Positions 30,443 to 59,235 of a stretch of 60,173 nt of DNA are shown here, piece after piece. A program made the translations under genes and the position numbers. Each line of letters opens with the position of its first letter. The stretch's first letter is position 1. Under the pieces are notes generated by a model. It was not told where the DNA came from, made no database searches, and saw only the letters and a program-made list of their open reading frames with translations. The stretch comes from Desulforudis sp. (lineage in GTDB: Bacteria > Bacillota > Desulfotomaculia > Desulfotomaculales > Desulforudaceae), in contig JAHRFU010000116.1 of NCBI GenBank assembly GCA_019084485.1, positions 1 to 60,173 of the forward strand, written 5' to 3'.

Positions 30443-31228
30443 CTATCTGGCATAGGCGAAAACGAAGGCGCCTAGCTTCCGGGCCACGGGGAGCGTGTGG
30501 AGAAAGCGGTTACTAACCCACGGCTCAAAGAAGAATGTCGCGCCATAGGAAGGATCCCAGCCGTTCAAGGCTTCTCGTGCTGCCCGTTTTGCTTCAGACG
30601 AGGCGGGACGATTGATCCATCTGTTTAGAACCGGCTCAAACTGAACCTTTCCTCCGGTGCTATCGTAGGCGACCCCGCGAATGGAGTTAGGAAACAGGTT
30701 GCTTTTCACCCTGTTGAGGATAACCGCCCCAACCGCGACCTTAACTTCAAACGGCTGGCAGTCCGCTTCAGCGGTGATCAGGCGTGCCAGAAGATCAAAA
30801 TCACTCGCCGAGGCCCACGCCGGACCAGCGGATGATGCCGGTGACACCGCGCGACTCACTGGTACAGTGGAACCGGACGGTATTACGAGCTTCTGTCCGG
30901 GCTGGATTTCCGAGCCACGAAGCCCATTAGCACGTCTGAGCTCCTCGACGGTGACACCGTGGCGCTGCGTAATCTTGAACAGGGAGTCGCCACGCTGAAT
31001 CGTGTAAGTGTTGACCTTTGAAGGGACGGTAAGCTTCTGACCGGGATAGATTGTAGATTGCTGACCGAGACTGTTGGCGGCTCGCAGTTCCTGAACCGAG
31101 ACGTTGAAGCGCTGTCCAATCTTAAACAGGGAATCACCGGATGCCACGGTATAGCTCGCCGCTAAAGCGGCGCTGACCGGCACTGTGAGGAGACACGCGG
31201 AAAACAGAAGCGTTAGAAAGAAGCGCAA
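30443..31228 (-). CDS. LysM-SleB cell wall (spore cortex) hydrolase
   Basis: 261 residues: a signal peptide (residues 1-24, hydrophobic core and cut after AALA-AS), two LysM repeats for peptidoglycan binding (YTVASGDSLFKIGQRF...PGQKLTVPS and YTIQRGDSLFKITQRH...PGQKLVIPS), a Pro/Ser linker, and a hydrolase_2/SleB domain (LLARLITAEADCQPFEVKVA, GAVILNRVKSNLFPNSI, GGKVQFEPV, GATFFFEPW). The Glu of the ITAEA motif is the expected catalytic acid. SleB enzymes degrade spore cortex at germination; the exact role here is inferred. The start is TTG with GGAGGG 7 nt upstream. An unusual structured leader precedes it. Confidence 0.9.
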   Translation of the reverse strand: MRFFLTLLFSACLLTVPVSAALAASYTVASGDSLFKIGQRFNVSVQELRAANSLGQQSTIYPGQKLTVPSKVNTYTIQRGDSLFKITQRHGVTVEELRRANGLRGSEIQPGQKLVIPSGSTVPVSRAVSPASSAGPAWASASDFDLLARLITAEADCQPFEVKVAVGAVILNRVKSNLFPNSIRGVAYDSTGGKVQFEPVLNRWINRPASSEAKRAAREALNGWDPSYGATFFFEPWVSNRFLHTLPVARKLGAFVFAYAR

Positions 31229-31243
31229 ACCTTTCCCTCCTGC

Positions 31244-31309
31244 GGCCTTCGAGGTTAGTTGAAAATCTTATTCCCCCGTTCTCTGCCAGCTATGACAGAG
31301 ATTCGGCCA
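31244..31309 (-). ncRNA. Structured leader resembling a shortened c-di-AMP (ydaO) riboswitch
   Basis: Minus-strand RNA of 66 nt. Closing stem GGCC/GGCC (31306-31309 side with 31244-31247). Inside are a 7-bp hairpin CUCUGUC/GGCAGAG, then CGGGGGAA, then CAACUAACCUCGAAGGCC. CGGGGGAA and CUAACCUCG are the first and last conserved blocks of the ydaO/yuaA class, as in the full copy at 59062-59192, but the central blocks (GGGGUGAAUC, GGGUAGGGU, CCCGAAUCCG) are missing. A TATAAT box places the RNA 5' end right at the element, and the ribosome site follows 3 nt after it. Identity is inferred, ligand unknown. Confidence 0.45.
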
Positions 31310-31317
31310 TTTTTGCC

Positions 31318-31346
31318 ATTATACCTTACTTGTGCCCCTCTTCCAG
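31318..31346 (-). promoter_or_regulatory. Promoter of the LysM-SleB gene
   Basis: -10 TATAAT (31318-31323) and a weak -35 CTGGAA (31341-31346), 17 nt apart, on the minus strand. Transcription would start about 10 nt before the structured leader. Confidence 0.6.
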
Positions 31347-57444: not shown

Positions 57445-57672
57445 CTCAATCCCTCCCTGAGGCCCCCGATCAACACCCTTCACTCCCTAGAATCTGTATG
57501 CGCCGATCAACGATCTTACCAACAAATCGTTGTCAATCTACCTCACAAACGGTGGTGTGGCAGAGGATTGCCGTGTGGAATCAAGGGAAACTGCAGGAGG
57601 GAAACAGGGCAAAGAAAAACCGTTCACGCCGTCAGCCGCGAACGGCCTAAGTGGAAACTCGCTGAGAATAGG

Positions 57673-58947
57673 CTACCGATGCGATCGGGGTTGATTGACG
57701 TAGCTGAAAACCCTGTTCTCCCACGTCCGTATCTTCAACTTTTTGCGGTCTCGCTCGACTATGTATGACGGCCCAATCGGGATCTTGCCGTACCCCCCTG
57801 GGGCATTGACAATGTATTCCGGAACCGCAAGACCTGATGTGTAGCCTCGCAGGTGCTCCATAATCGCCTGGCCTTCGTCGATGGATGTGATAAAATGACC
57901 GGTCCCCTGAACCTGCTTAGCGTGAAAGAGGTAATATGGCCTCACCCTAATCTTAAGCAATTCCTGGTTCAGCTTCTTCATTACGTATCGGTCGTTGTTC
58001 ACACCGCGCAGGAGAACGGTTTGGTTTCCCAGTACCACACCGGCCTTAATCAGGCGTTCACAGGCCGCTTTAGCCTCTTCCGTTACCTCCAGGGGATGGT
58101 TAAACTGGGTGTTTATGTAGATCGGTGGATACTTAGCCAAGACAGCACAGAGCTCCTCTGTAATACGCTGGGGCATGGTGACAATGGTCCGGGTTCCCAG
58201 CCGCTTGATCTCGACGTGCTCAATACGGTGCAGTTCCCCGAGTAACCAGTCCAACTGCCCGTCACTCAGGAGCAGAGCATCCCCGCCCGTTACCAGAACG
58301 TCCCTAATCTCCCGGTGCGCCCGCACGTAGGACAGAGCCTGCTCCAAAACACGGCGTGACTGGTGCTTGTCGATCTCCCCAATGTTGCGTCTGCGCTGAC
58401 AGTGCCGACAATACATGGCACATTGATTAGTGACGTTAATAATCAGACGGTCTGGATAACGTCTTGTTATCCCAGGAGCCGGAGATGTTAAGGCCTCATT
58501 CATTGGGTCAGGCAGGCCGATAGCATCCCGCAGTTCCAGAGGGGATGGTACACCCTGCTTCCAGATCGGCCCTTCCGGCCCGCCAACCGCGACGAGTGCC
58601 GCATAATAGGGCGAGATAGCCCATCGGCATTCTCGGGAAACCTTTTCGATGTCTGACACCTGCAAACGGTCTAGATCCATCAACTCTGCCAGTAAAAGCA
58701 GGGATGAAATCCGGTTTTGTAGCTGCCAGTGCCAGTCCGTCCAGTCCGCATCCGATCCGTCAAGCATCTTAAGCAGTTGTCTCTTCGCAAGGTCTATGCG
58801 GCTCGCCATTTTACGGCCAGTCGGCATTGTCGGTTCGGCGTCTAGATACCCGGTTATTCGGTTCTTCAGCTCCGCTGCTCTGCGTATCGAGATTGCCTGC
58901 CGCTCATCAGGGGCGAGAATACCCGCATCCACCCTGTTAGTGGCCAT
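57673..58947 (-). CDS. eam: Glutamate 2,3-aminomutase (KamA-family radical SAM)
   Basis: 424-aa radical SAM/PLP aminomutase. The cluster motif is CAMYCRHC (Cys176, 180, 183) and the PLP lysine is Lys388 in APGGYGK. In lysine 2,3-aminomutase two Asp (293 and 330 in the clostridial enzyme) hold the substrate amino group. Here the matching residues are Lys344 (FHAKQVQGTGHF) and Asn381 (YIVNAPGG), with the same 37-residue spacing. Lys and Asn at these sites mark glutamate 2,3-aminomutase, which makes beta-glutamate, a compatible solute. GGAGGG lies 8 nt before the ATG at 58947. A c-di-AMP riboswitch and terminator precede it. Confidence 0.88.
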   Translation of the reverse strand: MATNRVDAGILAPDERQAISIRRAAELKNRITGYLDAEPTMPTGRKMASRIDLAKRQLLKMLDGSDADWTDWHWQLQNRISSLLLLAELMDLDRLQVSDIEKVSRECRWAISPYYAALVAVGGPEGPIWKQGVPSPLELRDAIGLPDPMNEALTSPAPGITRRYPDRLIINVTNQCAMYCRHCQRRRNIGEIDKHQSRRVLEQALSYVRAHREIRDVLVTGGDALLLSDGQLDWLLGELHRIEHVEIKRLGTRTIVTMPQRITEELCAVLAKYPPIYINTQFNHPLEVTEEAKAACERLIKAGVVLGNQTVLLRGVNNDRYVMKKLNQELLKIRVRPYYLFHAKQVQGTGHFITSIDEGQAIMEHLRGYTSGLAVPEYIVNAPGGYGKIPIGPSYIVERDRKKLKIRTWENRVFSYVNQPRSHR

Positions 58948-58977
58948 CCTTTCATCCCTCCTGCATACAGAATGAAA

Positions 58978-59002
58978 CGCCCCGGAGTTCTACTCCGGGG
59001 CG
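58978..59002 (-). terminator. Terminator hairpin of the c-di-AMP riboswitch
   Basis: Perfect 11-bp stem CGCCCCGGAGT / ACTCCGGGGCG with a 3-nt loop, followed on the minus strand by TTTCATT. It lies between the riboswitch and the aminomutase start, as an expression platform should, though the U-tract is short. Confidence 0.8.
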
Positions 59003-59061
59003 TGATATACCAGAACACCAAACACTAAAACTAAAAGTTGTTTTCGTGCTTGCTTCTGCTT

Positions 59062-59192
59062 CTCACGCTTACGAGGTTAGCTGACGGATTCGGGTCAGAA
59101 GAATAACCCTACCCGGGACAAGACACCCGGGATTCACCCCATTTGTTGGTTCCCCCGCTTCTCACCGGAGCGAGAACTCAGCGATCTAACTA
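59062..59192 (-). ncRNA. c-di-AMP riboswitch (ydaO/yuaA class)
   Basis: On the minus strand all conserved blocks of the class appear in order: a P1 arm near AUCGCUGAG, the first hairpin closing to GAGAAGCGGGGGAACC, GGGGUGAAUC, a stem CCCGGG...CCCGGG, UAGGGUUA, CCCGAAUCCGUCAG and CUAACCUCGUAAGCG, which closes P1. The class senses cyclic di-AMP and normally switches genes off when it binds. A terminator hairpin 60 nt downstream and the aminomutase gene make up the rest of the unit. Boundaries are approximate. Confidence 0.9.
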
Positions 59193-59205
59193 TTTAATTG
59201 GTGAC

Positions 59206-59235
59206 ATTATACCACAGAGACGAGGATGCAGTCAA
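59206..59235 (-). promoter_or_regulatory. Promoter of the riboswitch-eam unit
   Basis: -35 TTGACT (59230-59235) and -10 TATAAT (59206-59211), 18 nt apart on the minus strand. Transcription would start just before the riboswitch P1 stem. Confidence 0.8.

Follow-up and report, generated by a model that had tools for sequence, protein, structure and literature searches.

Architecture of the eam leader

The window, a contig stretch of 60,173 nucleotides from a Desulforudis genome, carries a c-di-AMP riboswitch aptamer directly before eam, a gene of the KamA family. The elements of this locus, in the order of transcription, are:

59206..59235, minus strand: sigma-70-type promoter, TTGACT-18-TATAAT with TG before the -10 element, 11/12 consensus matches
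59051..59193, minus strand: c-di-AMP (ydaO/yuaA) riboswitch aptamer, RF00379, 102 bits (cut-off 38)
59063..59068, minus strand: GCGUGA, P1 3' strand of the aptamer plus 3' flank, predicted to form the antiterminator 5' half
59000..59005, minus strand: UCACGC, sharing bases with the terminator 5' arm, predicted to form the antiterminator 3' half
58977..59003, minus strand: terminator-like hairpin of 12 bp, then a weak T-run, TTTCATTCTGT
58956..58962, minus strand: ribosome-binding site AGGAGGG, 8 nt 5' of the ATG, read from the sequence
57673..58947, minus strand: eam, glutamate 2,3-aminomutase, KamA family radical SAM protein of 424 aa (TIGR04368)
57617..57648, minus strand: intrinsic-terminator-like hairpin 3' of the eam stop codon

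The match to RF00379 spans the full model (positions 1-134) with an E-value of 3.9e-23 in a search of the whole window. No non-standard pairs are flagged, and the score of 102 bits is among the better RF00379 scores in the class. The covariance-model search thus bears out the original prediction of a ydaO/yuaA riboswitch, and the promoter proposed with it is found at 59235-59206. A terminator hairpin had been proposed as well and is present at 59003-58977, with a stem of 12 bp instead of the 11 claimed; 9 of the 12 pairs are G-C. The expression platform in the 5' leader of eam comprises the promoter, this hairpin and a leader-specific antiterminator, and the leader fold is 4.3 SD more stable than dinucleotide shuffles. 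The ribosome-binding site lies outside the aptamer and outside the hairpin stem. For the Na+ aptamer RF03071, the Rfam scan gave no match in the window, so that a tandem Na+/c-di-AMP arrangement is absent here. Because a further hairpin follows the eam stop codon, the transcription unit looks monocistronic.

Enzyme identity

The open reading frame at 57673-58947 is the KamA-family gene that was expected downstream of the riboswitch, and its assignment as a glutamate 2,3-aminomutase is upheld. It scores 671.9 bits against the Eam equivalog model TIGR04368 (cut-off 650). Its score of 422.9 bits against the lysine model is below that model's cut-off of 525.4, and it also stays below the cut-offs of the arginine and EF-P-lysine (EpmB) models. 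For most of its length, Eam can be aligned with 2a5h, a lysine 2,3-aminomutase of known structure, and alignment to 2a5h and to the genome's own ablA product reveals that the radical SAM motif CxxxCxxC (C176, C180, C183) and the PLP lysine K388 are retained. Eam carries Lys344 and Asn381 where the lysine enzyme of the same genome (contig C62) has Asp at both positions. In lysine aminomutase, two Asp residues hold the side chain of the substrate. Lys and Asn occupy the same two positions in six other Eam proteins; the glutamate enzyme that has been characterised reportedly has this pair as its signature. Having passed the curated cut-off, the protein is predicted to convert L-glutamate to β-glutamate.

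The lysine 2,3-aminomutase gene of this genome (L117 494-2845, G000:C62) has no c-di-AMP riboswitch. It is divergent to a gene for a 283-aa protein, which may be a β-lysine acetyltransferase.

Conservation of the riboswitch-eam arrangement

eam is present in most of the 113 genomes of the class. The Rfam scan covered 79 eam loci of the class besides that of the window, and RF00379 lies directly upstream of eam, in the orientation of the gene, at 60 of them (61 of 80 with the window). The E-value of the window match and the recurrence of the arrangement at 60 other loci together exclude a chance match. The aptamer is kept at all eam loci of family f1 that were scanned, and it is absent from all 15 scanned loci of family f4; outside f4, 61 of 65 loci have it. 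Since f4 keeps eam without the riboswitch, c-di-AMP control is unnecessary for the role of the enzyme. For named genomes, in a set that overlaps the class set, the conserved-core motif is found upstream of 48 of the best 80 eam loci. Rfam confirmed RF00379 at 20/20 motif-bearing named loci tested. Among them are four from Moorella, two from Syntrophomonas (named or near-named species), and Carboxydocella thermautotrophica. At three loci (L018 939-1341, L082 263-664 and L089 226-595), RF03071 stands in tandem upstream of the RF00379 aptamer before eam.

The same riboswitch-eam unit is also found in a record named Thermodesulfobacterium thermophilum DSM 1276 (L177 545-2023), which points to gene transfer or to a mislabelled assembly. 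By coordinates, RF00379 lies directly before seven KamA paralogs that score below the cut-off for the glutamate enzyme (G036:C12, G037:C8, G039:C9, G073:C8, G096:C2, G098:C155 and G107:C52); these paralogs are probably lysine-type. In the same family of genomes, c-di-AMP aptamers stand before genes whose translations look, by eye, like parts of glycine-betaine-type ABC transporters (L145, L147, L154, L155).

Expression platform and predicted antiterminator

A terminator-like hairpin between aptamer and gene is present in 45 of the 61 leaders, and our script found none in the other 16. In about ten of these 16 (L005, L017, L030, L063-L067, L101, L116), the last few bases of the aptamer match are the ribosome-binding site, immediately followed by the start codon, an arrangement that suggests translational control in these relatives.

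For the antiterminator, we paired the aptamer 3' tails of 35 non-redundant terminator-type leaders with terminator 5' sides, both that of the own leader and those of all the others. The mean pairing energy is -12.0 kcal/mol within the own leader and -9.4 kcal/mol across leaders (z -6.8; own mean reached by 0/20,000 permutations). With one value per family, the energies are -11.1 and -8.5 kcal/mol, respectively (0/50,000 permutations). The pairing is thus leader-specific. For families f7, f9 and f16, own pairing is no better than cross pairing within the family, and the 'AGCGCY' leaders of f15/f16 misfit the antiterminator model. In the window, GCGUGA (59068-59063) and UCACGC (59005-59000) are a perfect strand match, and in predicted folds of growing transcripts this pairing precedes completion of the terminator arm.

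The T-run after the window hairpin, TTTCATTCTGT, contains 5 T in the ten bases scored, compared to 7 in the sibling L107 of the same genus, where an 11-bp stem is followed by TTTTATTTTGG. Given this weak T-run, termination may be leaky. The weak T-run, together with the roughly ten relatives that have their ribosome-binding site at the aptamer 3' end in place of a detected terminator, would fit a real aptamer followed by a poor terminator, with control in this strain mainly translational or weak. We consider this unlikely, since the ribosome-binding site of the window is outside both aptamer and hairpin stem, and the 12-bp stem is strong and shares its base with a perfect antiterminator strand. 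We retain transcription termination as the preferred mode of control.

A second, shortened aptamer

RF00379 has two matches in this genome, the eam leader and a shortened form in the same window:

31230..31318, minus strand: c-di-AMP aptamer of reduced length, upstream of a LysM+Hydrolase_2 gene, 36.7 bits, sub-threshold (cut-off 38)
30443-31228, downstream of the shortened aptamer: LysM+Hydrolase_2 cell-wall hydrolase gene

The orthologous hydrolase gene in the same-genus genome G049 has a complete RF00379 aptamer in the same place (75.7 bits). The two upstream regions align from promoter through aptamer to gene start, except for one internal deletion of ~68 nt in the window. The shortened form retains the promoter, P1, P2, GGGGGA, CTAACCTCG and the ribosome-binding site. 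Intact switches stand before the hydrolase orthologue in many other families. G046 and G048 keep an RF00379 match at eam only, and G048 has an eroded remnant before the hydrolase gene.

We rejected a conserved mini-class of short aptamers. A pattern search of 113 genomes gave one other case only, and the orthologous site holds the full aptamer in G049 and the eroded remnant in G048. The same observations make decay the simpler reading: the element at 31230-31318 is probably a broken switch, although it may be a minimal working one. This lineage thus seems to have retained the eam switch while that of the hydrolase decayed, and the one before eam is the sole intact c-di-AMP riboswitch that was found in this genome. 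Visible decay in the lineage raises the question of whether the eam RNA is itself decayed or differently tuned and thus unresponsive to c-di-AMP. We regard this as highly improbable, as the eam aptamer is of full length, has one of the better scores of the class and is kept throughout the scanned f1 loci.

A second short c-di-AMP aptamer of 94 nt and 43.3 bits occurs in another family (L149, G020:C21:38559-38652). The translation of the gene that follows reads as a LysM-NlpC/P60 protein.

Proposed mechanism

We conclude that the eam leader is very probably a canonical OFF-type c-di-AMP riboswitch that acts by transcription termination on the single gene eam, with the osmolyte β-glutamate as output. 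At high c-di-AMP, the folded aptamer would hold the P1 3' strand GCGUGA inside the aptamer. With GCGUGA sequestered, the 12-bp hairpin would form and transcription would stop before eam. At low c-di-AMP, as expected in osmotic stress, GCGUGA would pair with UCACGC at the base of the terminator, and formation of the antiterminator would allow read-through, so that Eam would convert L-glutamate to the compatible solute β-glutamate. The originally predicted direction of control, from ligand to terminator and OFF state and from absence of ligand to antiterminator and ON state, gains support from the leader-specific antiterminator pairing and from the analogy to the ablA switch described below. Two diadenylate cyclase genes are present in the genome.

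A different role can be considered for the output of this mechanism, in which the riboswitch governs eam, but β-glutamate is not osmoprotective or the enzyme uses another amino acid. In methanogens, β-glutamate serves as a static solute that responds to salt, and a few bacteria have also been seen to contain it (PMC1224877); these few bacterial reports leave room for such a role. In Moorella thermoacetica, whose eam (L187) also bears RF00379, the 7.7-fold induction of eam came with blue light rather than salt, which likewise leaves room for it; the gene was read as osmoprotective (PMC7835215), and this evidence for the osmolyte role is circumstantial. Against a different role stand the equivalog match with the Lys/Asn signature, the RF00379 aptamers before glycine-betaine-type transporter-like genes in the same family of genomes, and the occurrence of Na+ riboswitches before eam as well (Rfam loci; PMC9337991). 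We consider a different role to be quite unlikely and retain β-glutamate as the predicted osmolyte.

Comparison with known riboswitches

Among the closest known systems is the lysine 2,3-aminomutase gene ablA of Dehalobacter sp. CF (White et al. 2022, PMC9337991), before which a c-di-AMP riboswitch and a Na+ riboswitch stand in tandem. In vitro, the c-di-AMP switch follows OFF logic, with <5% read-through in the presence of c-di-AMP (PMC9337991). It shares with the eam leader the aptamer class, the enzyme superfamily and, as predicted for the window, the synthesis of a β-amino-acid osmolyte and the terminator/antiterminator logic with sequestration of the P1 3' strand. In contrast to ablA, the substrate in the window would be glutamate instead of lysine and there is no Na+ aptamer, whereas three relatives have both aptamers. 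Na+-I (DUF1646) riboswitches before eam are ON switches (PMC9337991). Both they and the window leader place a glutamate 2,3-aminomutase under riboswitch control; theirs is Na+-responsive and ON, while that of the window is expected to be c-di-AMP-responsive and OFF. With the ydaO/yuaA switches before K+ and osmolyte transporters and cell-wall hydrolases, the eam leader shares aptamer sequence and structure and the osmotic regulon. Unlike their targets, which import solutes or remodel the wall, the target in the window would make an osmolyte.

The novelty originally claimed is weaker than it was put. A c-di-AMP switch does stand before eam, but c-di-AMP control of β-amino-acid osmolyte synthesis was published in 2022 for ablA. 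In the searchable open literature, which leaves key papers and supplements outside reach, we did not find the c-di-AMP-eam pairing stated, and a search for c-di-AMP riboswitches with aminomutases returned PMC9337991 alone. RF00379 and Eam are known, as is the control of a β-amino-acid mutase by c-di-AMP; the broad distribution of the riboswitch-eam arrangement was not met elsewhere in the literature searched.

The c-di-AMP-eam pairing could be an ancient osmolyte switch shared across the class. The last gene with an intact switch in Desulforudis-type subsurface genomes would be eam, the hydrolase switch having decayed, and β-glutamate synthesis would there be the core RNA-level output of c-di-AMP. 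We hold the case for this joint reading to be evenly balanced. Beyond K+ and osmolyte transport, osmolyte synthesis emerges as a candidate c-di-AMP target that is widely conserved among the sulfate reducers, acetogens and syntrophs of the Bacillota. With the eam switch, it can be tested clearly whether β-glutamate is an osmoregulated solute in bacteria. eam also represents a natural series for the study of how riboswitch platforms change, as it is found behind transcriptional, tandem Na+/c-di-AMP and apparently translational ones.
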